In this document: in pieces, positions 27,854 through 45,073 of the stretch
Position numbering within the stretch: position 1 is the stretch's first letter
Layout: each line of letters opens with the position of its first letter
NCBI GenBank assembly: GCA_913061365.1
Contig: CAJXUT010000001.1
Coordinates: forward strand, 1 to 51,428
DNA from: an uncultured Colwellia sp.
GTDB lineage: Bacteria; Pseudomonadota; Gammaproteobacteria; Enterobacterales; Alteromonadaceae
DNA length: 51,428 bases
Direction: 5' to 3'
The notes under the pieces: model-generated
The model's database searches: none
The model's input: the letters and a program-made list of their open reading frames with translations, nothing else
Told to the model about the DNA's origin: nothing
Made by a program: the position numbers and the translations under genes

Positions 27854-30800
27854 TTACGCTTCGATGAGTGACAATACAATATCTTTCACTTCATATATTC
27901 TTAGGCCATCTTTCGATAAGTTGGCATCACCTACTAAACGCACTTCGCCATCAGTTCGAATGATGTCAGTGATATGAACATCAAGTGACATTTGTTTATT
28001 TAATGGCGTAATTTGACCACGATATTTCCATTTAACTAACGTTGTTGGTGCAATAAATCTTGGGTTAGTAAAGTCTTTACCTAAGTCATTTTTCAGTGCG
28101 TAGGTTTGCATTAACTCAATAATCGCTTCAACACCTAATGAACCTGGCATAACAGGATCTTGATGGAAGTGATAACGGAAGAACCAATCGGTTGCATCAA
28201 TAGTACGTTCACCATGCACATAAGCAACGCCAGCTTTACCACCACCTTCAACAATTGATACGGTATCAATGAAGTTCATTTGACCACCGGCCAATTTATA
28301 ATGCGGCTTGTTGTTTGGCGCTTGATAAAGTGCTAAATCATTATTCGATAAATCAATCACTTCAATATCAGATTTTGGCGTGTTGTTATCTTCAAACCAA
28401 GGATACGTTGTTCTGCCGTTATCTATACCAAGTTGGTTAGTTAATGCATCACCGCCAAAGTAACCAAAAACAGCCGTACCTTTATAGAATAAATCATGCT
28501 TTTCAAGTGATTGCGCTGCACAGTTTTCATCTTTAACATAAAGCTCAAAGGTGAAGCTCTGTACTATCATGCCGCCAGCCATGGTGGTGCTCAACAATAC
28601 TGATTTATTAACAATAGTTTTATTGCGTAAATCAACCTGCTTAATTAAGTCGCCACTGCCGTCTAAGTTACGGAAGAATAAATCTTTTTCAGGGTATTTT
28701 AATGTTGTGCCCATATAGCCTGAAATAAAGCCATTCGGTTGTAATGCAATTTCCATAATTAATGAATATGGCATCCAGTTTTCAACACTGTTTTTAGTGA
28801 AATACCAAGCGTCACTTGGCACAAAGTATTCAGCAATACAGCTAGAAGTCTTTTTCAGATCAAGACGTGTGCCTTGTACTTCAACCACTTGCGTTACAAC
28901 TTGTAAATCACCACATGGCGTACGCGGCGGAATTCTACCTTTATATACATCAAAGTCAGGACCAAAACATTTTGAGATATCACCAGTAGCAAATTCAAAC
29001 ATGTGCCATGGTGTAAACGGTGCTTGGTTTGGCACACGATTTTGTCCAGCAACCATTGGCGCTTCAAAATGTTGAATTGGCGTAACGCCCTTCTCTTTTG
29101 GTGCATTAAGATCCGACATCACTTTCATTAACGGACGTTCAATGTGTTTGAATGGTTCAACACCACGCTCATCAAGCTCAACGCTATTAGTTGTAATATT
29201 GGTAGTGCTTTCACTAGCCGTCTCATTACTCGCAATGCTTTGAGTCATTAATTGCACATTGTCAGGCAAGCTTACTGGGTAAGGCGAGTTTTCATCTTGC
29301 TCGGTGATCATTACACATAGATTTTTAAAATCAACAACCGCTTTGCCATCAAGAATTATTTCAATATTAGCTTTTAAGAATGGGTAAGGTTTCATACCCA
29401 TTTCGGTGACTTCCATGCGATACGTTAATGTATTGTGCTGTGGAATAACTTGCCCACGACAACGTACCGTTTGTGATTCACCTGGCATAGGTTGGAAACG
29501 CGCGTTATTCACATTCGCGTGCATACCTAATTTAAGCATTAAGAACATCGCCATTTGGCCACAGCCTTCACTCATTAATGAGCCAGCCATAACTTGATCA
29601 CCTTTGAAGTGACATGGGAAGTACCAGTGCTGTGGATCTAAATCTTTTTGGCCTTCTAATAAACCTAAGCCCCAATGACCACCCTTGGCATCAATTTTAG
29701 TAATGCGCTCAATCATTAAGAACTTTTTCGACGAGAATTTTAATGACGGGTTACGACCTTGTTGGTTATATTCTTCACCAAAACAGCCAGCAACATCACC
29801 ATCAACCAACTTCATCATATCGTTATAATCGAAATGTTGTTTGGCTTGTTTAGCTGCATCAATATTGGTAATTAATGGCGTGAAGTCCGTTTTAACGGCA
29901 TTAGCTAATTCAGCTTTGTCTTTATCATTTAAGATAACGCCTTTACCGTCAGCAAGCTCTTCATCAGTGAAGAAACCAGCACAACCATTGCGCATGATTA
30001 ATACTTTCTTGTCGCCAACATAACAATCGTAGTGGAAGAAGAATAATAGTTGTTCGCCATTTCTCGCGTATGAGTCAATGTGAATTTCATAGCGCAGTGT
30101 TTCACCACCAAAGGCCATTTCTTCTAAGAAAGTTAACTCACAATCAAGTAAACGATAAACACGCTCACCTTTGGCTTGAAAATCGATACCAATATAAGAG
30201 ATTAACAATAAATCACATTGGCCTGATTCTACCGATACTGACCATGGAATTTGACCATCAATTAAAAATGGTGCATCAACAGGAATATCGTACTCGGTGC
30301 ACATGTAAGATTTTTTATATTCGTTCACTGTCGCTTCTAGCTCAGTGACACGCGATACTAATAAGTAATCTGTGGTAGGTAAGCGAACGCGGCGCGAATA
30401 GCTATCGATTATTTTAAACTCATCACCAAAAACTTTTGCAATATCACCTTCGGCAAACTCGACTAAATCAGCAGTATCCCAAATAATTTCTTTTGGTTGA
30501 TTAAAACGCTCTTCCAGTTGCAATGGTGGGTAATGGTAACCATCAGGGCCCTTGATTTGGAAGCCTGATTCATTAGCCCAATGTTCATTAACAGCCACTA
30601 AATCATCGGTGTGCGTATTTTCAGTTACTACTGATAACTCAGGTGTTTGAGTTATTGCAGGTGTAGCTTCTGCACGATAAGCAGGTATTTTAAATCCAGT
30701 ATTGGCACTGACATTGGCTTGCATTTCTATCAGTTTAGAAATCTGCTGTCCCGCCATTTGACGCGTAGTTAAAAATGCTTGATGCGTAGCAGACTCTTGA

Positions 30801-33800
30801 TAAATTTCTTTACTCGCCTGATGTTTAACATCGACATTATGTTTTGTAGTCGCTTGTGAGATACTTTTCACTTTTGCTCCAGTAACGATAGTTGATCGTG
30901 CTTTGGCTTGAGTTGTGCTCATACTTTCTGTGTTAGCTTGTTCTTGAGCTTTTATTTGGGCTTGAGCAGTTAACTGGCTAACAGCCTTAGGTGTTAAGTT
31001 ACTCAAGTTGATACCTTGTTTAACGTTTGCTAGTACTTTGCCGGTAAATGACTGTTTAACACTCGCCATTTCCGCACATTTACTCTGATTAATAATGGCA
31101 TCATAAATTGAATTGCCACCCAAGCTAATGGTTTTAATTAATTTAGGGCGTTGCTTACCTGTGGGTGCAGGTGCACTTTGGTGAGATTGTTTGCTCGATG
31201 ATAAAATCAAATGAGCACAACTTTCATCTTTGCCTAAGCCACTAATTGCAATAGCTGATTTATGCGTAGTACGCTTATCTAAAACCAGTGCCGTTTTAAC
31301 AATGCTGGCAATACCCGAAGCATTAAAAGTATGACCAATATTACTTTTAACCGAGCTAATTACTTTGCCTGAATACAGTTTAGGTAACACTTGATTTTCA
31401 GCTGAATTTTCACGGCCAAAGCCACTAGCATGCGCTTCTACTTCACTTATATCTGCTGCATTAATGCCGGCAAGTGCTAACGCTTTATTAGCAGCGGTGG
31501 TAATAGCTTTATCATCCGTACCATTAGCAAAGCTTAAGCTATCAATATTGGCATAAATCTGTTGCTCAGTAACTTTCGATGCAGGCTTAACCACAAATGC
31601 GGCCGCGCCTTCACCGACAAGCCATTGGCCTTGTTCAAGCACATTACTTGTCGCTTTTGCTTCAACAGAAACGTTACCGTAATGTTGTCTCAGGGTGATA
31701 TTTTCTACTGAGCCAGCTAAATCAACCGAGGCAATAACAACGGCATCAATATCAGATGTTTGGAATAGGTTTTCAGCCAATTCCACACAACGATAAACAG
31801 AGTTTTCTTCTGCTGATAAGGTAATGGCTGGACCTGAGAAATCCCATAAGGCTGAGATACGTGACGCCATGATATTACCAATAAAACTGGTATATTGGTT
31901 AAGCTGCGCAGCAAAAGCAACGCCATCTTTGGCAATGTTAGTTAAGGTTTCACGTTGCTCGTCAGTTAAGGTAACACCTTGCTGTAATAAGCTTTCTTCA
32001 ATTTGTGTACTTAAATTAACGCGACCACGATACTGATGAAGTTCAAGCTCGATGCCCATTGCCACTAATACGGCAACATTGCTGCCTTCTTTAAGGCCAG
32101 CATCTTTAGCGGCATTATCAGCAACTTTCATCATCATCAGTTGTTGAGGAATTAAACAGTCTTGCTCATTTGGCGGTACTTTAAAGCGTAAGAAATCAAT
32201 ATCAAATTCTTCAACATAACCACCTTTGGGTGCTTTAGTTAACGATAAGGCATTCATTACTTGGCTATTTTGCTCAATACCTTTCCAACGCTTACTTGGC
32301 AATTCTCTAAAGGTATTGCCGTTTGTTTCTATCAACGTTTTAAAGCTAGCTAAATCTTTAGCCCCGCCAAAGTGTGCATCCATACCAATAATGGCTAACG
32401 GCTCACGATCTTTGGCTTTTGTTGTTATAGGCTCTAGGTTTTGACTCGGCTGCTGTAAAACCAAATGAGCATTGGAACCACCAAAACCAAAAACACTCAC
32501 ACCCGCAGTGCGTGGTTTAGTGCTGTTTTCTTGCGGCCAATCGATGGTATCTGTCGGCATTTGTGCGCCAGATAAATAACCATTTTTAGAGCTAAGTGGT
32601 TCGTTTAAATTAATGGTTGCAGGTATTTTAGCTTCATTCAAAGCCCAAATTGCTTTGGTCATGCCCGGCATACCTGCTGCGGTAAGTAAGTGACCTAAGT
32701 TAGATTTAACTGAGCCAAGTAGTGGCTTGTTGCCATTTTCTCTTGGAAAGCGGCTGAAGAAGGTATCCATTGAACCTAGCTCAACGTTATCCCCTTTAGG
32801 CGTACCTGTTGCGTGACATTCAATGTAGTCAACATCACGAGGATCAACATCAGCATCATCATAAGCACGTTCATAAACAAGCACTTGCCCTTTAGTATTT
32901 GGGCTTAGAACAAACTCACCTTTACCATCATTAGATAACGCGCCACCTTTAATAATAGCGTGAATTTTATCGCCATCACGTACCGCATCACTATGGCGTT
33001 TAAGTACCATCATGCCAGCGCCTTCGCCAGCAAATAAACCTTGCGAGTTTTTGTCAAACGGGGCGTGAATATTATTCGCAGGATAAGCTTGGAAAATTGA
33101 AAAGCCCATATTAACAAACATAGGATCAGAGCCAGAAACTGCGCCCGCTAACATCATGTCAGCTTTACCTGTGTGTAAGTAATCACAGGCCAACTTCACT
33201 GAATAACAACTAGATGCACAAGCTGCATCAAGAGCAAAATGTGTTCCACCTAGCCCTGCTGCTTTAGCAAGTAACGCTGCAGGGTAACCAGCCACTAAAG
33301 CATTATCTGCATGAATATCTTTTTGCGCGATATCAGTTTCAGAAAAATGGCTTAATTGAAAGTCGTTATTCAAAGCCTGTTTTAAAGCGCCATCAACTAC
33401 TTGGTGATAAAGGGGCATAAATAAATGATTTGATGATTTTGTCGGAAACGATAAGTTACCTAAAATAACGCCACAATCTTCAAGTTTATCACTGCCCCAA
33501 TAACCTGCATCGGTTAAGGCTTGCTGGGTTACATATAGTGCCCACTGATTTAAATCATCTAACTGGTTTAAGTAATCCGTTGTTAAGCCATTTTGATTAT
33601 TAGCCTGCCCCTGTTGATTATTAGCAACAAAAGCACTGGCGTCAAAATTAAAGTCTCGAATATAACCGCCGTGTACACAATAAAACTTATCGGTATCACC
33701 CTTTTTACCTGTATATTTGTCAGGATCAACACCCATTTGTTCACTGGTTGCTTTGCTTCTGCAATCTTGTTTTTTAAGTAATTGTTGCCAAAATTCTTCT

Positions 33801-33856
33801 GGCGCAGAAGATCCTGGGAATAAATTAGCAATACCTACTACAGCAATATTTTCCAT
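27854..33856 (-). CDS. pfaC: PfaC: PUFA synthase KS-CLF-DH-DH subunit
   Basis: KS motif DAACASSCYSVKLA, second KS-like/CLF region, two FabA-like DH regions (HWYFPCHFKGDQVMAGSLMSEG; DWFFRYHFHQDPVMPGSLGVEA). Start placed at MENIAVVGIANLFPG (33856) rather than the tracked 33928, which extends into pfaB. Confidence 0.97.
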   Translation of the reverse strand: MENIAVVGIANLFPGSSAPEEFWQQLLKKQDCRSKATSEQMGVDPDKYTGKKGDTDKFYCVHGGYIRDFNFDASAFVANNQQGQANNQNGLTTDYLNQLDDLNQWALYVTQQALTDAGYWGSDKLEDCGVILGNLSFPTKSSNHLFMPLYHQVVDGALKQALNNDFQLSHFSETDIAQKDIHADNALVAGYPAALLAKAAGLGGTHFALDAACASSCYSVKLACDYLHTGKADMMLAGAVSGSDPMFVNMGFSIFQAYPANNIHAPFDKNSQGLFAGEGAGMMVLKRHSDAVRDGDKIHAIIKGGALSNDGKGEFVLSPNTKGQVLVYERAYDDADVDPRDVDYIECHATGTPKGDNVELGSMDTFFSRFPRENGNKPLLGSVKSNLGHLLTAAGMPGMTKAIWALNEAKIPATINLNEPLSSKNGYLSGAQMPTDTIDWPQENSTKPRTAGVSVFGFGGSNAHLVLQQPSQNLEPITTKAKDREPLAIIGMDAHFGGAKDLASFKTLIETNGNTFRELPSKRWKGIEQNSQVMNALSLTKAPKGGYVEEFDIDFLRFKVPPNEQDCLIPQQLMMMKVADNAAKDAGLKEGSNVAVLVAMGIELELHQYRGRVNLSTQIEESLLQQGVTLTDEQRETLTNIAKDGVAFAAQLNQYTSFIGNIMASRISALWDFSGPAITLSAEENSVYRCVELAENLFQTSDIDAVVIASVDLAGSVENITLRQHYGNVSVEAKATSNVLEQGQWLVGEGAAAFVVKPASKVTEQQIYANIDSLSFANGTDDKAITTAANKALALAGINAADISEVEAHASGFGRENSAENQVLPKLYSGKVISSVKSNIGHTFNASGIASIVKTALVLDKRTTHKSAIAISGLGKDESCAHLILSSSKQSHQSAPAPTGKQRPKLIKTISLGGNSIYDAIINQSKCAEMASVKQSFTGKVLANVKQGINLSNLTPKAVSQLTAQAQIKAQEQANTESMSTTQAKARSTIVTGAKVKSISQATTKHNVDVKHQASKEIYQESATHQAFLTTRQMAGQQISKLIEMQANVSANTGFKIPAYRAEATPAITQTPELSVVTENTHTDDLVAVNEHWANESGFQIKGPDGYHYPPLQLEERFNQPKEIIWDTADLVEFAEGDIAKVFGDEFKIIDSYSRRVRLPTTDYLLVSRVTELEATVNEYKKSYMCTEYDIPVDAPFLIDGQIPWSVSVESGQCDLLLISYIGIDFQAKGERVYRLLDCELTFLEEMAFGGETLRYEIHIDSYARNGEQLLFFFHYDCYVGDKKVLIMRNGCAGFFTDEELADGKGVILNDKDKAELANAVKTDFTPLITNIDAAKQAKQHFDYNDMMKLVDGDVAGCFGEEYNQQGRNPSLKFSSKKFLMIERITKIDAKGGHWGLGLLEGQKDLDPQHWYFPCHFKGDQVMAGSLMSEGCGQMAMFLMLKLGMHANVNNARFQPMPGESQTVRCRGQVIPQHNTLTYRMEVTEMGMKPYPFLKANIEIILDGKAVVDFKNLCVMITEQDENSPYPVSLPDNVQLMTQSIASNETASESTTNITTNSVELDERGVEPFKHIERPLMKVMSDLNAPKEKGVTPIQHFEAPMVAGQNRVPNQAPFTPWHMFEFATGDISKCFGPDFDVYKGRIPPRTPCGDLQVVTQVVEVQGTRLDLKKTSSCIAEYFVPSDAWYFTKNSVENWMPYSLIMEIALQPNGFISGYMGTTLKYPEKDLFFRNLDGSGDLIKQVDLRNKTIVNKSVLLSTTMAGGMIVQSFTFELYVKDENCAAQSLEKHDLFYKGTAVFGYFGGDALTNQLGIDNGRTTYPWFEDNNTPKSDIEVIDLSNNDLALYQAPNNKPHYKLAGGQMNFIDTVSIVEGGGKAGVAYVHGERTIDATDWFFRYHFHQDPVMPGSLGVEAIIELMQTYALKNDLGKDFTNPRFIAPTTLVKWKYRGQITPLNKQMSLDVHITDIIRTDGEVRLVGDANLSKDGLRIYEVKDIVLSLIEA

Positions 33857-33872
33857 ACTTTCCTCGAAAGTT

Positions 33873-36425
33873 TTATAATTCTTTTTTAGCGACAATAATT
33901 GAGCCAGTAAACAAGGTTTGAAGATCAAGCTTCACACCGTGGCTAGTTAGTTTTGCAATCGCTCTTAAATATGTTAATTCGTCACTTGTGCCTTTGGCAT
34001 TTACCGGTACGGCAACTCGTGCTTTATTTGCATTATCACTCGCTGAATTAGCTGATGATTTTTCAGCATAATCTAATGTTTTATCTACCCAACTACATAG
34101 CGAGCGCCCAGGTCCCATTTCAATAAATACTCGTGCACCTTTGTCATGCAAGGTATTGATCAAACGTGGAAAATCTACGCGATCACAAAGACATTTAGCC
34201 ACACTGTGAGCAATAGCTTTACTCAGTTGAGGGATAGGTAAATAACAAGAACTTGAATACATTTTTGTTGTTAAACGTGGTGTTACATCCATGGTGTATA
34301 GCTTAACCATGTCATCATGTTCTTTATTTGCAGGTGCGCTGTGGATAGCATTAGCCATATTTAATGGCATAGCACGAACACCTATTTTTTTAATCACACG
34401 TAAACAATCTTCTGGATAACCTGCCACTAATAAACTATCTGGCGTATTCACTATGGTGCAATAAACACGTTCTTCACCCTCGCTTGCTTTGATGAAGTCA
34501 TCAAGGGTTGCTTTAATGGTGTAAGTTTCCCAAATCAATTCATCTTGGGTACTTTCATCCAAGCCCCAATGTTCGCGCAAAGTTAATAACTCACCGCAAA
34601 GGCGATGATTGAAAGTGTCTGAATTAGCTAAACGAGCGCTCATTAAACCGGGCTGTTGCCAAGCACCAAGCGCTGCATACATGCTAACTTCACCCATAGA
34701 GTAACCGGTGGCGTAGTCAGCTTTAACATTAAACACATTTTCAAACACTTTGGTAAATACACAGGCAAAACCAACACCCGCTTCTGCGATATCAGCTAAG
34801 CTGCCTCTAAGATTTAAATCAAGTTGTTTAAGTTCTTTAAAATCAGGACGAACAATGGTACGTGGGTTTAATAGTTTATCTTTTAAACTCGCGCCAATAT
34901 CATCCGCTAGATCAGCAACGTCTTGGTGTATTTCCGGAAATAAATGGAATAAATCACGACCTAAACCAACATAAGTTGCACCAATACCTGGATATAAGAA
35001 GGTCACATTACCGGCTTTTTCATCCGTGTTCACTGGCGTAGCGCTAAAATAGCTACCTTTAGGTGTACGCCATTCATTATTAGCATTTTCAGAAGAGAGT
35101 GCGCTAACAATGCCCACTTTGGCTAATTGAATTTCTTTAATTAATTCTGCTTTTGATTCACATAACAAGGCAATAGTATAGCTATCACTTTCTGCTTTCG
35201 ACTGGTAACTGTGGTAGCACTCTAATGCCAGCTGTTTTATTTCACTCTCGTTTGCTTCAAGTTGAGTTTCAACAGTATCTAACTTTGCTAGTAAAGTGCT
35301 TTGATCACTACCACTAATAAGTACTAACTGCAGATCACTACAGGCAATAAAACCATTACGACGAATATCATCCGCTGGATGCTTTTCAGATGAATGAGTC
35401 ATTTTATTTTCAGCTAACACCACATGACAGTAATCGGTTTTCTCAGCAGTATTTGTTGTTAAACAACTATAAGCTGCAAGGTGAGCACTACCATCAACAT
35501 GAGGGTACCAAGGGCGAGATTCTGTAGGAAAATAAAAAACTGAGTTTTGCCATTGTGCTAACTCACTTGCTTGTGGCTGCTGCCAATCACTAATAGCGGG
35601 AATATAGCGTTGCTGCAATGCGATAACAGTGCGTAGTAAACCTAATACTTGCGAAAATCCTTTACCTTCACCCGTAACACTACGCGCACAAGTTATTGCA
35701 GCAGATAGCTTATCATCATGCTCATAGCTTGATATTAATGCGCTAGATTCTTGCACAGCAAAGTTTTTATCACTTAAACCTGAGACTTCAACTAAACCAA
35801 TATCACACGATTTAACATTAGCCTTTTGCAAAGCTGACTGCGTCGTTGTATGAATATCATCCCCAACAGCAAAACTTTTAACCCATGAATAAACATAACT
35901 GTTATTTACTTGAGCAAAACTAGAAGATGAAAACAATAAAGCGGCAATGCCATAACAATGCTGATACGCCGTAAAACTTTCATCAAAGCTTATAGTCGCT
36001 TGCGTTGCTTGTACTAGCTGCTCACTTTCTGAGGCTAATTGCTCAGCTAAGTTAACGCCAACTAGTGCCACTAAATGATTATCAGCAAGTAATAAGTCTA
36101 CTTGCTGCAATGCTTGGGCTAGCGAATTAACTACCAATACATTTTCAAGCAAGTTTGTATTGTCTTGATCAACCAATACTAGCTTAATATCAGCACTGCT
36201 AACTTGGTTAGCCAATGCCATACGAGCTACGGCTTGTTGAATATCACTAGTCGCAATGCCAGAAATACTATTGATTTGTTCATGCGATTCTGAGGTGCTT
36301 TGACCTTGTTCTTTACCTAAATAAAGTGCGCGCTCAACACGATCGATATCTTGCTGAACACTATTCTGGTTAATAAACTGAGCATCAAGTCCGATAATGG
36401 CACTGTTGTAATTACTCATTGTCAT
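33873..36425 (-). CDS. pfaB: PfaB: PUFA synthase acyltransferase-containing subunit
   Basis: YPGIGATYVGLGRDLFHLFPEIHQDV, GYSMGEVSMYAALGAWQQPG, position between pfaA and pfaC; start codon overlaps pfaA stop (taATG). Confidence 0.96.
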   Translation of the reverse strand: MTMSNYNSAIIGLDAQFINQNSVQQDIDRVERALYLGKEQGQSTSESHEQINSISGIATSDIQQAVARMALANQVSSADIKLVLVDQDNTNLLENVLVVNSLAQALQQVDLLLADNHLVALVGVNLAEQLASESEQLVQATQATISFDESFTAYQHCYGIAALLFSSSSFAQVNNSYVYSWVKSFAVGDDIHTTTQSALQKANVKSCDIGLVEVSGLSDKNFAVQESSALISSYEHDDKLSAAITCARSVTGEGKGFSQVLGLLRTVIALQQRYIPAISDWQQPQASELAQWQNSVFYFPTESRPWYPHVDGSAHLAAYSCLTTNTAEKTDYCHVVLAENKMTHSSEKHPADDIRRNGFIACSDLQLVLISGSDQSTLLAKLDTVETQLEANESEIKQLALECYHSYQSKAESDSYTIALLCESKAELIKEIQLAKVGIVSALSSENANNEWRTPKGSYFSATPVNTDEKAGNVTFLYPGIGATYVGLGRDLFHLFPEIHQDVADLADDIGASLKDKLLNPRTIVRPDFKELKQLDLNLRGSLADIAEAGVGFACVFTKVFENVFNVKADYATGYSMGEVSMYAALGAWQQPGLMSARLANSDTFNHRLCGELLTLREHWGLDESTQDELIWETYTIKATLDDFIKASEGEERVYCTIVNTPDSLLVAGYPEDCLRVIKKIGVRAMPLNMANAIHSAPANKEHDDMVKLYTMDVTPRLTTKMYSSSCYLPIPQLSKAIAHSVAKCLCDRVDFPRLINTLHDKGARVFIEMGPGRSLCSWVDKTLDYAEKSSANSASDNANKARVAVPVNAKGTSDELTYLRAIAKLTSHGVKLDLQTLFTGSIIVAKKEL

Positions 36426-39400
36426 TATACTTCTTTCTCAGTAAGAGCCGTCTCACTAAGTGTTTTTGGCAAAAATAAATCATTTAAATTAGCACTGGCG
36501 GTCACTTTGGCTGACTTTATCTCACTCAATACTTGATTACCTTCGCTGATTAGCTGTATATCTGCTGTTAATGCGCCTCGTTGCTTACCTTTACCCGAGC
36601 TTTTAACAACCGTTAATTGCAGGTAAAAACATTCATTAAGTGTCACTTCACGGTATACAGTCCAGCTTTGCGTACTTGACGGTAAGCTACCTAAGCCTAA
36701 CTCTTTTTTCGCCCAAACTAACATCGCTTGGTACGCTAAATCATTAGCAAAAATGTTACTTTGCTCACCAGTGCTACTTAACGGGAAATCACCTTGTTTG
36801 TCATTGGCTACGCTAGGTACTTGGCAGCGTAATAATAAACCTTGCTCATTACATTCAAGTACTTCATTAATACCTTGCAAACTAGGCCCGTGAAATAAGG
36901 TACCATTGCTGTAAAGTGCTTGTGCATTTTTGGCTGTTGTTGGTATCGTTAAATTAATCTCAGGGCTAACAGTACGCTTACTAGTTAACACTAATTGAGC
37001 ACCATAATGGAAAACGATTTTTCCTTGCGCATTAAAACTTGAAATTTTTGTATCAACCGTCAAGCTTGCACCGTCATCAACAACCTGAGCATTCATATCA
37101 ATTTGATATTCACTTGCTTCACTACCATCAAAGATGACACCTTTGAACAGCTTGTAATTCTCTAAGCCTTGATAGTGATAATCTAGATAAGCTTGCTCAC
37201 TGGCATCACGCATCCACGCGATTGCACATACTGTTGGGAAGACTTTATCTTCGCCAATAATATGGTCAGCTAAAAAAGTATTGTTAGTCGCTAAAAGTAT
37301 TTTATTAACACTGACGTTTAAGCGACTAACTTGTGGCTTTTTTGCAGCTGTACCCGCTTGATCTTTCGACAAATCATTACCTACTAAGATTTGTGCGCAA
37401 CGGTTATTATTTGCCCCTAACTCACTCACTAATAATTTAGCGCCGGCATCAAGTGGAATAATATAAACACCGCGATCATTAAACATACGTTTCAGCTCTG
37501 GTGTTACCATGCCACCATCCCAAGGTCCCCAGTTAAAACTAAGTACTTGCGCATTAGGGTTTAACGCTTTAAAGCGATAAGCCGTTTTATTTAAAATGTC
37601 GTTGGCGATAGAGTAATCTGATTGCCCTGGATTTCCGTGGAAACCTGCCGCTGACGAAAACAACACTAAGTGTTTAACTTTTTCCGCCGTTGTTGCCGCT
37701 AATAAAGAAAGTAAACCATCAATTTTGGTTGTATAAACTGAATTAAATTCCGCCAGTGTTTTTTGCTCTATAAACTTATCAGCTAAAACACCTGCACCGT
37801 GAATAATACCAGTAACTTCTCCAAGCTCTTTGGTGATTGGCGCTACTGCTGCTGAAACACTGCTACTGTTAGTTACATCAGCTGCCACATAGTGTGCTTG
37901 GCCGCCAGCGGCTTTAATTGCATTTAATGTTTGTGCAATTTCACGATTTGCTAAAACAGGACGAACAAATTGCGTTACTTTAACTGGCGTAGGTTTGTCA
38001 CCTGCAGCAATCAAGGCTTGCATCGCCGCTTTTTTCAAAGCAACTTCGTCAGTAATACCTTGCGCCCAACTTGGTTCGTTATCATCAAACGATGAACGAC
38101 CTAATAAGATAAATTTAGCTTGATACTGTTTGGCTATTTCTATCACACAATGAGCTGTTACACCTTTGGCGCCACCACTCACTAAAAATACTGAATCACT
38201 GGTAATGCTTTCCCCAGCTGTTAATTGATAACTATCAGTAGCCACACCGGTTAAGGTTAATCGCGTACCAATGTTATTACTTAGGTTATCTGTGTCATAA
38301 GCTACTTCAACAAAGCTAGTATCAATATCCAATAATTCGTCACTGATCATTGTTGCTGCTTTATCTGCCGCTAATTTAGCAGACAAATCAACTACTCGAC
38401 AGAATACGCTATCTTCACCTGCATTCCATTCGTGGTTAATGGTTTTAACTAAGCCTGCTAAACCTGCTTGTACTAAATCAGCATTAACATCTGCTTTAAC
38501 TTGTGCAGCACTGTCATCACCATTGGCGAAACCTAACGCGCCACCTTGACGTGTAACAACCATAAATGAAGCACGTACTTTGGTTGCTGCTTTTACTTTA
38601 GATAGTTTCGCTAATATAAACGCTAGCATTAAGCCTTGTTTTGCCGCTTCTGGGTAAGCAATAGCATCAACTGGATTACCAGATTGTAAGTATATCACCG
38701 CATCAAGTTGTTCATTTTTCTCGATGATATCGCTAACTTGCGCTTCATCAAGCGTTTTATCACTGTTACCAATTTCAATCACGTTAACTGATTTAGCAAA
38801 AGCTTTTTTCGAGTTAACTGTTATCCAGTTAGGCTTTAACGCGGTAACGTTCCAACCGGCTTTTACTAGTTTGCCACTTAATGCAACGGCTGCGCCTGTG
38901 CCATCGTCAACGATTAAAGCATTAGCACCTGTTACATCTTGAGCTATTTTATTAATTGAAGATAAAGCCGTTAATTCTACAGTAGCACTAGGTGCTCCTT
39001 GAAAGTCAGCCGTAACTTCAGTTGTTTTGTCTGCTGTTGGCACACTTGCTTTTGCACCTGGTGGTGTTGGTTCCGTCGGAGAAACTTTAGATTGCATATA
39101 ACTTACAATCTCGCCTAAGGTACGTAGCTCTGCTAAATCTTCAGGATTAAGCTCTGGTAAATCAGGAATCGTTTCCTGAACAGCCCCTAAAATCTCAACA
39201 CGTTTAATCGAATCAATACCCAAGTCTGCTTCCATATCCATGGCAAGCTCTAACATTTCTACTGGGTAACCTGTTTTCTCAGCAACCACTTCCATCATCA
39301 CTTTTTGGATGTAATCAGTGTCAATCGCCGGTGCCGCGCTTACTTCGTTACTCGTAACTATTAACTGCTCCGCAGGAGATACTTTAGACTGCATATAGCT

Positions 39401-42400
39401 AACAATTTCACCTAAGGTACGTAATTCAGCTAAATCTTCTGGGTTAAGCTCAGGTAAATCAGGAATCGTTTCTTGAACTGCCCCTAGAATTTCAACGCGT
39501 TTGATTGAGTCAATACCTAAATCTGCTTCCATGTCCATTTCAAGCTCTAACATATCAACAGGGTAACCAGTTTTCTCAGCAACCACGTCCATCATTACTT
39601 TTTGAATGTAATCAGTATCAATGGCAGGTGCAGCGCTTACAGCTGCTACGGGTGCGCTTTCTACAACAGGAGCAGATACTTTAGACTGCATGTAGCTAAC
39701 GATTTCACCTAAGGTACGTAATTCAGCTAAATCTTCTGGATTAAGCTCTGGTAAGTCTGGAATGGTTTCTTGAACCGAACCTAAGATTTCAACACGTTTA
39801 ATAGAGTCGATACCTAAATCTGCTTCCATGTCCATTTCAAGCTCTAGCATATCAACGGGATAACCAGTTTTCTCAGCAACCACTTCCATCATTACTTTTT
39901 GGATGTAAGCTGTATCAATGGCAGGTGCTGCACTTGTGTCAGCAACTGGTGCACTTTCTACAACAGCAGCTGGTGCAGCAGAGACTTTAGATTGCATGTA
40001 GCTAACGATTTCACCTAAGGTACGTAGCTCAGCTAAATCTTCTGGATTAAGCTCTGGTAAGTCTGGAATGGTTTCTTGCACTGAACCTAAGATTTCAACA
40101 CGTTTAATAGAGTCGATACCTAAATCTGCTTCCATATCCATTTCAAGCTCTAACATTTCTGTTGGATAGCCTGTTTTCTCAGCAACAACTTCCATCATCA
40201 CTGTTTGGATTTTTGCTAAATCAACTGCTGCAGCTTGCGCAGGAACAGCAATAACTGTTTCAGCAACAGGTGCCATCGCTACCGCAGTAGCGACTGTTTG
40301 TACTGGCGCTACTGGAGTATTAGTAACTACAGGCGTTACCGGAGTCGCTTGAGTAACAGGTTTTGAAACTTGAGCTGCTGGTTTTACAGGAGCTGGAGTT
40401 GATGCTTTAGGTGCTGCAGGTGTAACAACTTTCTCTACATTTTTTGCTACAACGGGTGCATCACTAGTTGATAACATGGCTGCCATATTATCTGTTTGAT
40501 TATTTAGATATTGTTCATGAACACGTAAAGTCTCAGATTGGAAGTCATGGTACATGCCTAAAGTGCGATCTAAACTTTCAGGTAACTCATCACCTTCTTG
40601 TGCAGAAAGTACAGTATCAAAGGTTTTAGCGTAATCTTTTGGACCTTGCATATATTGTTCATGCACGTTTAATAGCTGTTGTTGATGATCAACAAACTGG
40701 CTAACACTACGTTCAATGCTGTTGGCTAAATCTTCAGCACCTGCTCCACCAGTCACTGCAGCTGGCACATTAACCTCGTTTGGTTGAGCAATACTGCCAT
40801 CAGCATTTAAATAAACAATTTTTTCAACTTCGACAATTTTCTCTACTATCTTCTCTACTTCTACAATTTTTTCTACTACTTGTGCCGCTGGTACCGCAAC
40901 AGGTACAGAGGTAGCTTGCTTAATAGTAACACCGTCATTTAGGGCATCTTCAAATGCTTTGGTTGTTTTAGCACTAACATAAGAAGCACCTGTTAATTTC
41001 ATTCCTAAAGGAGACATTTTAGTTGCCGCTAACGGACGTTTAACCGCGCAATAAGGATCAACATCATTGAGTGTTAAACCTAATACCGCCATTTGCACAG
41101 CCGCTTGACGCATTTGCATATCAGCAGACTTTTTAGGATTTGCATTAACTGCAATTGCCACAACATCGTCTTTGTCTTGTAAGATATTTTCAACTAGTTT
41201 AGTTAAAACATTCTTTGGTCCAAATTCAACAAATACACGACCACCATCAGCATAAATATTATCAATTTCTTCATTAAAGTGAACTGATTCTAATATGTGA
41301 TTTTTTAAGCTCTTTTTAATATCAGCTGCTTTATTTGAATGTGCTTTTGCTGTGCCATTAGAGTAAACAGGTACACTTGGCTTATTAAATTTAGCGTTAT
41401 CAATTGCTGCTGCAAAAGGTTTTTGAGCATGGCCAACCAATGGTGTATGAAATGCTGCTGAAACAGGTAATGGAACAACTTTATAGCCTTTCGCTTTAAG
41501 CTCATCCATCGCGATAGCAATTTGACTTGTTACACCGGCAACCACCACTTGGTTGTTTGAGTTGTAATTAGCAATAGAGATATCTTTGATGTCCTTGATA
41601 TCTTCGGCCACTTTTTCAGGTGAACCCACCACGGCAATCATGGTACCTGTATCAACACTTGTATCTTCTGGTGCTGCCATTGCTTGACCGCGACTACGAG
41701 CTAACATCATATAATCGCTGTCGTTTAATACCCCCGCAGCCCAAAGTGCTGTCAACTCACCAAAACTGTGACCCGCAGTAAAATCAGCCTTAAAGCCCGC
41801 ATTGGTGAAAGTTTTATATAGGCCAACACTTAAGGTACCAATAGCAGGCTGCGCATGTTGAGTTAATCGCAGTGCTTCTTCTTGTGCTTTGCGTTCATCA
41901 TTACTAAAAACAGGAATTGGGTAGGTTGTTGGCGTTAATTGTCCTAAACCAGCAGTAGTAAATTCACTATCCATATCTTGTGCAGCTTGCATTACACTTG
42001 GGAAGTTACAAGCAAGCTCTCGTCCCATGTTCACATATTGTGAGCCCTGACCAGAGAAAAGTGCAACCACTTTACCTTCAACGGTTAAGGCTGATTTACG
42101 ATAGTAAACGCCTGTTGGAATAGACCAGTCATCTTGACCTGCTTTTGCTTTAAATTGTTTAAGCGCCGCTTCAATCATGCTAATTGCTTGCTCAGCATTT
42201 TTAGCAACAAAACCACAACGAGCTAATTCAGCTGCTGGTGTTTGCAAGGCATTTTCAGTCACTAAGGCATTAAACACATACGGTTGTGCTTCGCTATTAA
42301 CACTCAATTTAGCTTGCCAATCAGTTAAGTTAGCAATTAAAGCGTTCTCGCTTTCAGCCGCAACTAAAATAGTTTGTGGTACTGCATTTAAACGGTACTG

Positions 42401-43876
42401 CCCTTGTGCCGTTGGCGTGTATTCTTCTAATACCATGTGGTAGTTAGTACCACCAAAACCAAATGAGCTGATGCCTGCACGACGAGGTAAACCATCTTCT
42501 CTTGCCATCCAAGGACGTGTTTCACTGTTCAAATACATTGGGCTATTTTCAATTTCTAGCGCTGTATTTGGTTGATCAATATGAATAGTTGCCGGTAATA
42601 CTTTGTGGTGTAACGCTAAAATTGCTTTGATCATACCTGCAGAGCCAGCAGCTGCTTTAGTATGGCCAATTTGCGACTTAACTGAGCCTAATGCAATATG
42701 CTGTTTTTGATCGTTATTTGCACTAAAATGCTTAACCAAACCACCAAATTCAGCGGCATCGCCTGCTTTGGTACCCGTACCGTGGGCTTCAATTAAACCA
42801 CAAGAGCTAGGAGCAAAACCTGCATCATCATAAGCACGTTTTAATGCTTTTGCTTGTCCATCTGGACGCGGTGCATAAATAGATTTAAAACGGCCATCTG
42901 AAGAAGTACCAATACCTTTAAGTACCGCATAAATTTTATCGCCATCACGTTCAGCATCTTCAAGACGTTTAAACGCCATCATGCCGATACCTTCACCAAT
43001 CATCATGCCTTTTGAATCATTATCAAACGGGCGAATATCTTCACCGGTAGTAAAAGCAGGCGTTTTAGAGAATGACATGTACATAAACGGTGAGTTATCA
43101 CAACAAACACCACCAGAAATCATCACTTCTGAGCGATGCTCTAATAAGTCTGAAATGGCTAATTTAATTGCTGCTAATGAACCTGCACAAGCCGCATCAA
43201 CCACACAGTTAGTGCCACCAAAATCAAAACGGTTAGCAATACGACCTGAAATAACATTACCTAACATGCCAGGGAATGAATTTTCTTCCCAGCCAATATA
43301 AGCTTTCTTAAACTTTTCAATGATCATGGCGCGATCTTCAGCATCAACACCAGAGGCTTTTAATACTTTTTCTAAAACAGGGCCTTGTAAGCGAGACGTT
43401 AATGGTGAAATTTGTTTTTGTCCACCACCCACACCTAGCGTGATACCTACTTTGTCACGGTCATAGCCTGAGCCATCACCTATACCTGCATCATTTAGCA
43501 CATCACGAGCAACCACTAATGATAATAATTGTGCGATATCGGTTAATTCTAAGATATTTGGCGGTAAACCAAACTCCATAGGATCAAAGTCAATTTCAGG
43601 TAAAAAGCCACCGCGTTTACAGTAGGTTTTATCTGCTGCGCGTGGATCGCTATTATAATAATCGTCAACTGCCCAACGATCGCTAGGCACATCTTTAATG
43701 GTGTCTACTGATTCAAAAATATTGTCCCAGTAATCTTCTAAATTTTTAGCATCTGCAAAAATTGAGGCCATACCAACAACAGCAATTGGGCACTCTTGTA
43801 AGCGCGAGTTAAATTGCTGTTCATCAGTGAGGTTTTCTTCAGCTTTTACATTTGTTACATCTTGCTTATTAACCAT
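36425..43876 (-). CDS. pfaA: PfaA: PUFA synthase KS-AT-ACPx4-KR subunit (with C-terminal hotdog-like region)
   Basis: KS VDAACAGSLAAIK; AT TAGHSFGELTALWAAG; four LGIDSIKRVEILG ACP motifs; KR-type LVSGGAKGVTAHCVIEIAKQ and GVLADKFIEQKT. Confidence 0.98.
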   Translation of the reverse strand: MVNKQDVTNVKAEENLTDEQQFNSRLQECPIAVVGMASIFADAKNLEDYWDNIFESVDTIKDVPSDRWAVDDYYNSDPRAADKTYCKRGGFLPEIDFDPMEFGLPPNILELTDIAQLLSLVVARDVLNDAGIGDGSGYDRDKVGITLGVGGGQKQISPLTSRLQGPVLEKVLKASGVDAEDRAMIIEKFKKAYIGWEENSFPGMLGNVISGRIANRFDFGGTNCVVDAACAGSLAAIKLAISDLLEHRSEVMISGGVCCDNSPFMYMSFSKTPAFTTGEDIRPFDNDSKGMMIGEGIGMMAFKRLEDAERDGDKIYAVLKGIGTSSDGRFKSIYAPRPDGQAKALKRAYDDAGFAPSSCGLIEAHGTGTKAGDAAEFGGLVKHFSANNDQKQHIALGSVKSQIGHTKAAAGSAGMIKAILALHHKVLPATIHIDQPNTALEIENSPMYLNSETRPWMAREDGLPRRAGISSFGFGGTNYHMVLEEYTPTAQGQYRLNAVPQTILVAAESENALIANLTDWQAKLSVNSEAQPYVFNALVTENALQTPAAELARCGFVAKNAEQAISMIEAALKQFKAKAGQDDWSIPTGVYYRKSALTVEGKVVALFSGQGSQYVNMGRELACNFPSVMQAAQDMDSEFTTAGLGQLTPTTYPIPVFSNDERKAQEEALRLTQHAQPAIGTLSVGLYKTFTNAGFKADFTAGHSFGELTALWAAGVLNDSDYMMLARSRGQAMAAPEDTSVDTGTMIAVVGSPEKVAEDIKDIKDISIANYNSNNQVVVAGVTSQIAIAMDELKAKGYKVVPLPVSAAFHTPLVGHAQKPFAAAIDNAKFNKPSVPVYSNGTAKAHSNKAADIKKSLKNHILESVHFNEEIDNIYADGGRVFVEFGPKNVLTKLVENILQDKDDVVAIAVNANPKKSADMQMRQAAVQMAVLGLTLNDVDPYCAVKRPLAATKMSPLGMKLTGASYVSAKTTKAFEDALNDGVTIKQATSVPVAVPAAQVVEKIVEVEKIVEKIVEVEKIVYLNADGSIAQPNEVNVPAAVTGGAGAEDLANSIERSVSQFVDHQQQLLNVHEQYMQGPKDYAKTFDTVLSAQEGDELPESLDRTLGMYHDFQSETLRVHEQYLNNQTDNMAAMLSTSDAPVVAKNVEKVVTPAAPKASTPAPVKPAAQVSKPVTQATPVTPVVTNTPVAPVQTVATAVAMAPVAETVIAVPAQAAAVDLAKIQTVMMEVVAEKTGYPTEMLELEMDMEADLGIDSIKRVEILGSVQETIPDLPELNPEDLAELRTLGEIVSYMQSKVSAAPAAVVESAPVADTSAAPAIDTAYIQKVMMEVVAEKTGYPVDMLELEMDMEADLGIDSIKRVEILGSVQETIPDLPELNPEDLAELRTLGEIVSYMQSKVSAPVVESAPVAAVSAAPAIDTDYIQKVMMDVVAEKTGYPVDMLELEMDMEADLGIDSIKRVEILGAVQETIPDLPELNPEDLAELRTLGEIVSYMQSKVSPAEQLIVTSNEVSAAPAIDTDYIQKVMMEVVAEKTGYPVEMLELAMDMEADLGIDSIKRVEILGAVQETIPDLPELNPEDLAELRTLGEIVSYMQSKVSPTEPTPPGAKASVPTADKTTEVTADFQGAPSATVELTALSSINKIAQDVTGANALIVDDGTGAAVALSGKLVKAGWNVTALKPNWITVNSKKAFAKSVNVIEIGNSDKTLDEAQVSDIIEKNEQLDAVIYLQSGNPVDAIAYPEAAKQGLMLAFILAKLSKVKAATKVRASFMVVTRQGGALGFANGDDSAAQVKADVNADLVQAGLAGLVKTINHEWNAGEDSVFCRVVDLSAKLAADKAATMISDELLDIDTSFVEVAYDTDNLSNNIGTRLTLTGVATDSYQLTAGESITSDSVFLVSGGAKGVTAHCVIEIAKQYQAKFILLGRSSFDDNEPSWAQGITDEVALKKAAMQALIAAGDKPTPVKVTQFVRPVLANREIAQTLNAIKAAGGQAHYVAADVTNSSSVSAAVAPITKELGEVTGIIHGAGVLADKFIEQKTLAEFNSVYTTKIDGLLSLLAATTAEKVKHLVLFSSAAGFHGNPGQSDYSIANDILNKTAYRFKALNPNAQVLSFNWGPWDGGMVTPELKRMFNDRGVYIIPLDAGAKLLVSELGANNNRCAQILVGNDLSKDQAGTAAKKPQVSRLNVSVNKILLATNNTFLADHIIGEDKVFPTVCAIAWMRDASEQAYLDYHYQGLENYKLFKGVIFDGSEASEYQIDMNAQVVDDGASLTVDTKISSFNAQGKIVFHYGAQLVLTSKRTVSPEINLTIPTTAKNAQALYSNGTLFHGPSLQGINEVLECNEQGLLLRCQVPSVANDKQGDFPLSSTGEQSNIFANDLAYQAMLVWAKKELGLGSLPSSTQSWTVYREVTLNECFYLQLTVVKSSGKGKQRGALTADIQLISEGNQVLSEIKSAKVTASANLNDLFLPKTLSETALTEKEV
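39080..40222 (-). repeat. Four tandem ACP-encoding repeats within pfaA (unit about 300 bp)
   Basis: Near-identical protein units [MEVVAEKTGYP..MLEL.MDMEADLGIDSIKRVEILG[SA]VQETIPDLPELNPEDLAELRTLGEIVSYMQSKV], one each at about 39.99-40.22, 39.68-39.91, 39.39-39.62 and 39.09-39.32 kb. Confidence 0.97.
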
Positions 43877-43891
43877 TAAAGTATCTCCAGT

Positions 43892-44773
43892 TTAGGATTT
43901 TGTTGCGTTTTCGCGGTCACTATTGTCAATATCACTTGGGCGATTTTTTTCATCATCAGCACTATCAGTGGCATTGTTCGCTACATCATTTAGTAGACGA
44001 AAACGACTTAGAAATTCAGTATAATTACCCGCCAAAATTCGGCGAATATGGAATGGGGCTTTAGTGAGCACGTAGCTCATGTAACGACTCGCTGCATCAG
44101 CTTCGTTACCATCATAAATATCAACATATACCCAGCCAGAGCTAGGATCATTGGCGACGAGTAAACGTCGTTTATTCATTTGATCTTTTTCTTTTACTTC
44201 TTCAGAGTCAGCCGTTTGCTTTTCATTAGAAAAGTCTGGCAATTGTGTGACTTTTACTTGTACGACTTCATCTTCCGATAAATTATTAGTCCGATTCAGT
44301 ACTTCACGCATTGCTTGTGGTGAAATATCTGAATGGAGTACTTGGTGTTCAAGGGTATCTTCTAACGTGACTTGTACAGGTGACGACAGTGGGCTATCTG
44401 CATCGATAAATTCACCACTATCTTCCATATCAGCTAAACGCGAAACACCATGGCGTTTTAAACAACGTTGTAAGCCGGCACGAGATACATGTGGATTGAT
44501 AAACTGTTTACAGACCGCAAGTAATTCATCAAGAGAGAGCAATAATCGAGTTCTCAATTCAACAACAACATACTCTTGCGCTTCACTTAACGTAGTGTTT
44601 AATTGTTTTGGTACATGAGACGCATCTGACATCGATTCGCGTCGACGCCATTTGCGTACTGTTGACTCAGATATTTTAAGTAAACGTGCTAGAACCGCAG
44701 TTGGTAAATCTGATTCATGAATAAACGCACGCATTTCAGGCGTTGTAGTCGCATTCGCATGTTGTTTAGACAT
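43892..44773 (-). CDS. pfaR: PfaR-like transcriptional regulator with IS481-transposase-like architecture
   Basis: N-terminal HTH (LARLLKISESTVRKWRRR), LSLDELLAVCKQFINPHVSRAGLQRCLKRHGVSRL, degenerate rve-like segment; directly upstream of pfaA (15-bp gap). Confidence 0.85.
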   Translation of the reverse strand: MSKQHANATTTPEMRAFIHESDLPTAVLARLLKISESTVRKWRRRESMSDASHVPKQLNTTLSEAQEYVVVELRTRLLLSLDELLAVCKQFINPHVSRAGLQRCLKRHGVSRLADMEDSGEFIDADSPLSSPVQVTLEDTLEHQVLHSDISPQAMREVLNRTNNLSEDEVVQVKVTQLPDFSNEKQTADSEEVKEKDQMNKRRLLVANDPSSGWVYVDIYDGNEADAASRYMSYVLTKAPFHIRRILAGNYTEFLSRFRLLNDVANNATDSADDEKNRPSDIDNSDRENATKS

Positions 44774-44807: not shown

Positions 44808-45073
44808 ACTATGCTCTGCTGTAGTGGTTATGCTTACTTGCTGCTTTATCATCAATCGTCTTTCTTCATCGTGTATTAAATATAAAATACACTGAATATA
44901 TTTTATCAAGGTGGGCTAATATACACAGGTTTCATACCCAACACAATCACCCGATACAAGGTTAAATGTGAAAATAGACAAAAGTATTAGCTACCGATAA
45001 GTTCGAATGGACAACCAGTTGAAGCTGGCAGGTTTCCATTTTATAAAAATCAAGTATAAGTAAGTAAAAACCT

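Follow-up and report, generated by a model that had tools for sequence, protein, structure and literature searches.

The closest described counterpart of the gene reported here is PfaR of Colwellia psychrerythraea 34H, which was described as a transcriptional regulator rather than an active transposase, with DDE residues that are not conserved, and which was modelled on MuA (4FCY) (Wan et al. 2016, PMC4744452). Regulation of the pfa genes by PfaR was stated without data (Wan et al. 2016, PMC4744452). The control of EPA/DHA synthesis in marine bacteria remains an open question with practical value. Our search of the open literature returned this one relevant paper on PfaR, and its sections bearing on PfaR neither assign the protein to IS481 nor count residues across the family, and they mention neither an operator nor a connection of the promoter with a transposon end. 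The core idea of a first-pass annotation of the DNA analysed here, an inactive DDE transposase serving as a regulator, had already been published in 2016 (PMC4744452). We found no report of the IS481 assignment, of the residue counts across the family or of the inverted-repeat operator in the open literature searched, subscription papers being outside the search.

We analysed a 51,428-nucleotide stretch of DNA from an uncultured Colwellia sp. (contig CAJXUT010000001.1), hereafter the window. The closest named relatives of the source genome are Colwellia, several of them from the deep sea, with 82-90% identity. The pfaR gene of the window is the same gene, at the same position in pfaRABCD, as that of C. 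psychrerythraea 34H. Our results support the view that PfaR is probably an IS481 transposase that has lost its mobility and become a DNA-binding regulator dedicated to the pfaRABCD operon, the binding and the control being inferred. The genes concerned are as follows.

43892..44773, minus strand: pfaR, an ATG-initiated ORF of 293 residues, IS481-derived and catalytically dead
36425..43876, minus strand: pfaA, the first synthase gene, with ketoacyl synthase, acyltransferase, tandem carrier and KR domains
33873..36425, minus strand: pfaB, from domain evidence
27854..33928, minus strand: pfaC, with two ketoacyl synthase and two FabA-like domains

A domain scan identified the pfaA, pfaB and pfaC domains downstream of pfaR, and the start of pfaA at 43876 leaves a gap of 15 bp, as the first-pass annotation had claimed. 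That annotation gave no strand; all the peptides it quoted are present in the 293-residue ORF of the minus strand, while the plus-strand frame at 43892-44773 is riddled with stops. A chance or artefactual ORF was ruled out. The source genome carries a single copy of pfaR and no further IS481 above the family cut-off, so that no intact IS481 was seen there that could act in trans.

PfaR is homologous to IS481 transposases across both the HTH region and the RNase H core. The protein matched the NCBIfam model transpos_IS481 with an E-value of 7.5e-26 (residues 18-259 against profile positions 9-208 of 284), and the score of 91.3 bits lies under the NCBI equivalog cut-off of 224 bits for the transposase. 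The same model was matched by all 48 PfaR family members scanned. In a tblastn search with PfaR, IS481 elements (ISKpn27, ISGlo3 and others) were matched in 1395 plasmid records, the best of them with 34-38% identity over nearly the whole length of the protein. Phylogenetically, all 31 PfaR rows of the tree fall into one clade with a support of 100/100, placed among IS481.

A rival reading holds that only the HTH part is common and that the C-terminal half is unrelated to transposases. In its favour, a Pfam scan of PfaR reported HTH models only, without rve, and the PDB fold search with the PfaR model was weak, with IstA first at E=0.024, MuA (4fcy) at E=0.55 and no Foldseek match below 0.001. 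A profile search of solved structures with PfaR likewise gave no match. However, the C-terminal half alone aligned with the IS481 RNase H core in a profile-profile comparison with 98.9% probability and E=1.3e-17 (hhalign), whereas the reversed control reached only 0.3% and an E-value of 0.2, and the NCBIfam match is one alignment running through both parts of PfaR. This rival can hardly be maintained. Since Pfam sees only the HTH models, the rve part appears to be too diverged for a single-sequence scan. The first-pass annotation had claimed IS481 ancestry, had proposed a phylogeny as a check, and had named a C-terminal half without significant similarity to rve/IS481 as refuting it; the claim held for both halves by NCBIfam, profile-profile comparison and tree, and the refutation was not met.

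The architecture of the protein and the positions of the lost catalytic residues are given below.

44453..44740, minus strand: DNA-binding region at the N-terminus (residues 12-107), predicted to form two HTH units of three helices each, and the best-conserved part of the protein
44267..44437, minus strand: PfaR-specific insertion, residues 113-169, between the HTH region and the RNase H remnant, with a predicted beta hairpin
43988..44266, minus strand: what is left of the RNase H-like transposase core (residues 170-262), the Glu helix being absent (the profile-profile match above)
44252..44254, minus strand: codon of K174, the first catalytic Asp position
44027..44029, minus strand: codon of G249, the second catalytic Asp position

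To locate the catalytic positions, 15 intact IS481 relatives served as the ruler against which 109 distinct PfaR proteins were aligned. Aspartate occupies the first catalytic position in 15/15 IS481 proteins and in 0/109 PfaR proteins, which carry K, V, E, S, Y, N, A, R, M or L instead; at the second position, aspartate is again present in 15/15 IS481 and 0/109 PfaR, where R, G, A, K, S, E or N is found. The Glu region is missing in all 109, and a median of 39 residues follows the second catalytic position in PfaR, compared with 123 in IS481. On the basis of these aligned residues, PfaR is catalytically dead across the whole family. Accordingly, the lysine that the first-pass annotation had read at the first Asp held (K174), as did the loss of the second, which it had read as AGNY in place of TDNG and where G249 stands, and the end of the protein before the Glu region, which proved family-wide; intact DDE residues after proper alignment, which it had named as a refutation, were not found at either Asp position.

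The linker between the HTH region and the core is longer in PfaR (66-104 residues) than in active IS481 (38-48 residues). The AlphaFold model of PfaR (pLDDT 80, pTM 0.68) shows two helical DNA-binding units, a hairpin and part of a sheet, with helices at residues 12-20, 25-32, 36-44, 64-77, 81-92 and 98-107 and the strands of the inserted hairpin at 134-139 and 144-149. A helix was modelled for the segment that aligns with the fourth core strand. The invariant columns of the family alignment support the N-terminal region as the most conserved part of PfaR.

The association of pfaR with the synthase genes is not confined to the window. Wherever the locus was informative (137/137), pfaA lies directly downstream of pfaR, with a gap between -58 and +115 bp (median 14). 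These loci come from a survey of 395 genomes of the order and from a separate named collection of 80 loci. Each of the 58 PfaR loci read in the survey is followed immediately by pfaA in the same orientation, which is not the case at 11 other loci; in the named collection, pfaA comes next at 79 loci, and the lone exception is cut by a contig end. Fixation beside pfaA, as claimed by the first-pass annotation, thus held across the family. PfaR is found in Colwellia, Psychromonas, Shewanella, Parashewanella, Motilimonas, Pseudoalteromonas and one Vibrio, and also in several genomes labelled Pseudomonadales or BD1-7 clade. The single PfaR clade would fit a domestication that happened once and then travelled with the pfa cluster.

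Could pfaR merely be a decaying insertion sequence hitch-hiking with the pfa cluster? That it encodes a truncated transposase would fit such a reading. However, the gene is under strong purifying selection, with a median dN/dS of 0.07 (range 0.014-0.14, 21 pairs), its ORF stays open through the conserved part, and it occupies the same position in many genera, which leaves next to no room for this rival. A decaying pseudogene was rejected by the dN/dS values. In Colwellia and Psychromonas pairs, dN is lower in the N half of pfaR than in the C half.

Upstream of pfaR, a block of sequence stays constant while its flanks diverge. The predicted elements of this promoter region are as follows.

44939..44957, minus strand: predicted PfaR operator GTATCGGGTGATTGTGTTG, matching the inner portion of the terminal inverted repeats of IS481, found with an IS481-end matrix and without binding data
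44941..44946, minus strand: -35 element TTGTGT, within the operator, its TTGT kept in 76/76 aligned promoters
44918..44923, minus strand: -10 element TATATT, with 17 bp between it and the -35 element, the same spacing as in nearly all of the 76 promoters

The predicted operator reads GTATCGGGTGATTGTGTTG in Colwellia, GTATCGGGTGATTGTATAG in Psychromonas and GTCYCRGGTGATTGTATYG in Shewanella, with the core GGGTGATTG. The 76 pfaR promoters share two blocks separated by a spacer of exactly 17 bp. In Colwellia and Psychromonas the -10 box at 17 bp (TATATT) is good, in Shewanella the -10 boxes are poor (TAATCT, TAGTCT), and the -35 box is weak everywhere; a generic promoter scan omits the pfaR promoter because of this weak -35.

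The IS481-end matrix was built from 22 ends of 11 elements without any PfaR sequence, and its inner 19 positions were used for scanning. The inverted repeats were set from symmetry, and two elements were verified by the boundaries of several copies. Over both strands of the window, about 102,800 positions, the site at 44939-44957 ranks first with 15.4 bits, the next reaching 12.8. Across 78 loci, the pfaR promoter site is first in 65 and among the top three in 75, whereas column-permuted matrices gave a mean of 0.5 and a maximum of 3 first places out of 78, and 3 of 1000 placed the site first in the window. Conversely, a reciprocal matrix of 26 distinct pfaR operators found an IS481 end as the best match in 9 elements, including one absent from the first matrix (L166), and the end was the top match in most of the nearer IS481 elements. 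As a sequence match, the correspondence between the operator and the inner, binding part of the IS481 inverted repeats is shown; there are no binding data. Three loci (L074, L121 and L124) have no good operator site by the IS481-end matrix, L121 retaining a diverged copy. In complete genomes, the operator pattern occurs within one mismatch in 10 of 13, all ten just upstream of pfaR, and further operators elsewhere in the genomes were either missing or did not exceed the reversed-pattern control. The first-pass annotation missed this IS481-end-like operator, which we regard as the strongest evidence for the exaptation it had proposed; its exaptation reading as a whole is supported.

Other features of a transposon end are missing. 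The TGT cleavage tip is not conserved at the pfaR operator and is not among the twelve commonest tips there, and a full-length end matrix including the tip misses the promoter site because the tip is lost. No right-end inverted repeat was found when the interval between pfaR and pfaA was searched. As neither the TGT tip nor any trace of a right end is kept, the insertion history is inferred. Two further observations concern such sites: a BD1-7 clade genome (L104) carries two tandem GGGTGATTG copies upstream of pfaR, and a GTGATTGTA-like site recurs inside active IS481 transposase ORFs, at about +840 on the minus strand (L159, L160, L165 and L166), possibly reflecting coding conservation only.

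The pfa clusters without pfaR provide a natural control. There are 21 pfaA-bearing genomes without a pfaR match, from two other families, one of which is likely to be Moritella, an identification that is inferred; Moritella lacks PfaR (PMC4744452). We examined the upstream regions of 12 such clusters (L189-L200), in which none of the three best sites falls in the 350 bp preceding pfaA and an ORF of at least 120 residues is mostly lacking from the final 600 bp before that gene. Separately, one pfaA of a Psychromonas-like family (L203) has no pfaR match though its relatives carry pfaR, a possible natural loss.

The promoter site might belong to another regulator, its likeness to an IS481 end being coincidental. 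Without binding data, another protein could indeed recognise it. Against this stand the permutation and reciprocal matrix controls, the lack of such a site in the 12 clusters examined that have no pfaR, the extra genomic copies being absent or at control level, and the IS481-like DNA-binding half retained by PfaR. We therefore give this explanation very little credence.

In the history we favour, an IS481-type element would have inserted upstream of an ancestral pfaA. Comparison shows that the right end and the Glu-bearing C-terminus were lost, that both catalytic aspartates decayed, and that the HTH half was retained under selection. The left inverted repeat would have lost its cleavage tip and kept its transposase-binding part, now overlapping the -35 box of pfaR; here the match is shown and the descent is inferred. 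PfaR is presumed to bind the retained repeat and thereby to control its own gene and the pfa genes behind it. That the operator descends from the old left end, rather than having been recruited independently, is inferred from its position and linkage. A bolder reading, which we also consider probable with binding again inferred, is that the promoter of the marine PUFA-synthase operon is a fossil IS481 left end bound by a dead transposase recognising its own former inverted repeat. The same joint claim implies that in bacteria a whole transposase/inverted-repeat pair probably turned into a regulator/operator pair.

The sign of the regulation is less certain. The first-pass annotation called PfaR an activator, which is not shown by the sequence, and activation versus repression remains unproven. 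We lean towards class II-type activation, given that the centre of the site falls at about -38 to -41 and that the Shewanella -10 boxes are poor, a preference inferred from sequence alone and held with only modest confidence. The main alternative is autorepression, in which PfaR bound at the -35 would block RNA polymerase at its own operon. The operator does cover the -35 hexamer, and the Colwellia and Psychromonas promoters have their good -10 at 17 bp. Some transposases are known to autorepress at their own left end. However, the poor Shewanella -10 and the universally weak -35 would fit a promoter needing help, again as far as the sequence alone permits inference. We give autorepression the smaller share of our confidence, without being able to dismiss it.

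PfaR may not be the only case. A second dead IS481-derived lineage (L061-L064 and L066-L069), separate from PfaR, comprises proteins of about 275 residues that have lost DDE and occur once per genome, in 8 of the 395 genomes, from five genera of two other families. It adjoins an operon of PTS IIB/EIIC, isoaspartyl peptidase/asparaginase and M17 leucyl aminopeptidase, to which it is divergent in some genera and convergent in others. An IS481-end-like operator was looked for in this lineage and not found. It may be another exapted regulator, and its place beside an unrelated operon suggests that the route from transposase to regulator was used more than once. In one genome only (L065, 3521-4360, minus strand), a third shortened IS481-derived gene without catalytic residues has a Ser/Thr kinase gene as its co-oriented neighbour, with a type VI secretion FHA gene close by.

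For the control of EPA/DHA synthesis, the analysis names a regulator and offers a 19-bp candidate operator together with a mapped, albeit predicted, promoter. If the proposal is true, PfaR would represent a clean bacterial conversion of a DDE transposase into a transcription factor whose operator is its own retained inverted repeat, a jumping gene becoming a switch in one step, as its binding site would have arrived already at the promoter.

Compared with IS481 elements such as ISKpn27, ISGlo3 and their relatives, PfaR shares the N-terminal HTH arrangement and the core motifs around the lost residues, and its operator corresponds to the inner portion of the inverted repeats at their ends. Unlike them, it lacks the DDE triad, the C-terminal part, the cleavage tip and the right end, and it has a single copy, a fixed locus and an extra linker. 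Transcription factors recruited from mobile elements, such as Ner/SfsB and antitoxins (PMC8987985, a review in which the term DDE is not present), are likewise mobile-element DNA-binding proteins controlling a host operon. Whereas these were already transcription factors, PfaR would be a recombinase turned regulator together with a transposon end. The TnpB-derived, RNA-guided transcription factors TldR are, as PfaR would be, inactivated transposon nucleases turned regulators. TldR is RNA-guided and unrelated in sequence to PfaR, whereas PfaR would rely on HTH recognition of an inherited repeat.
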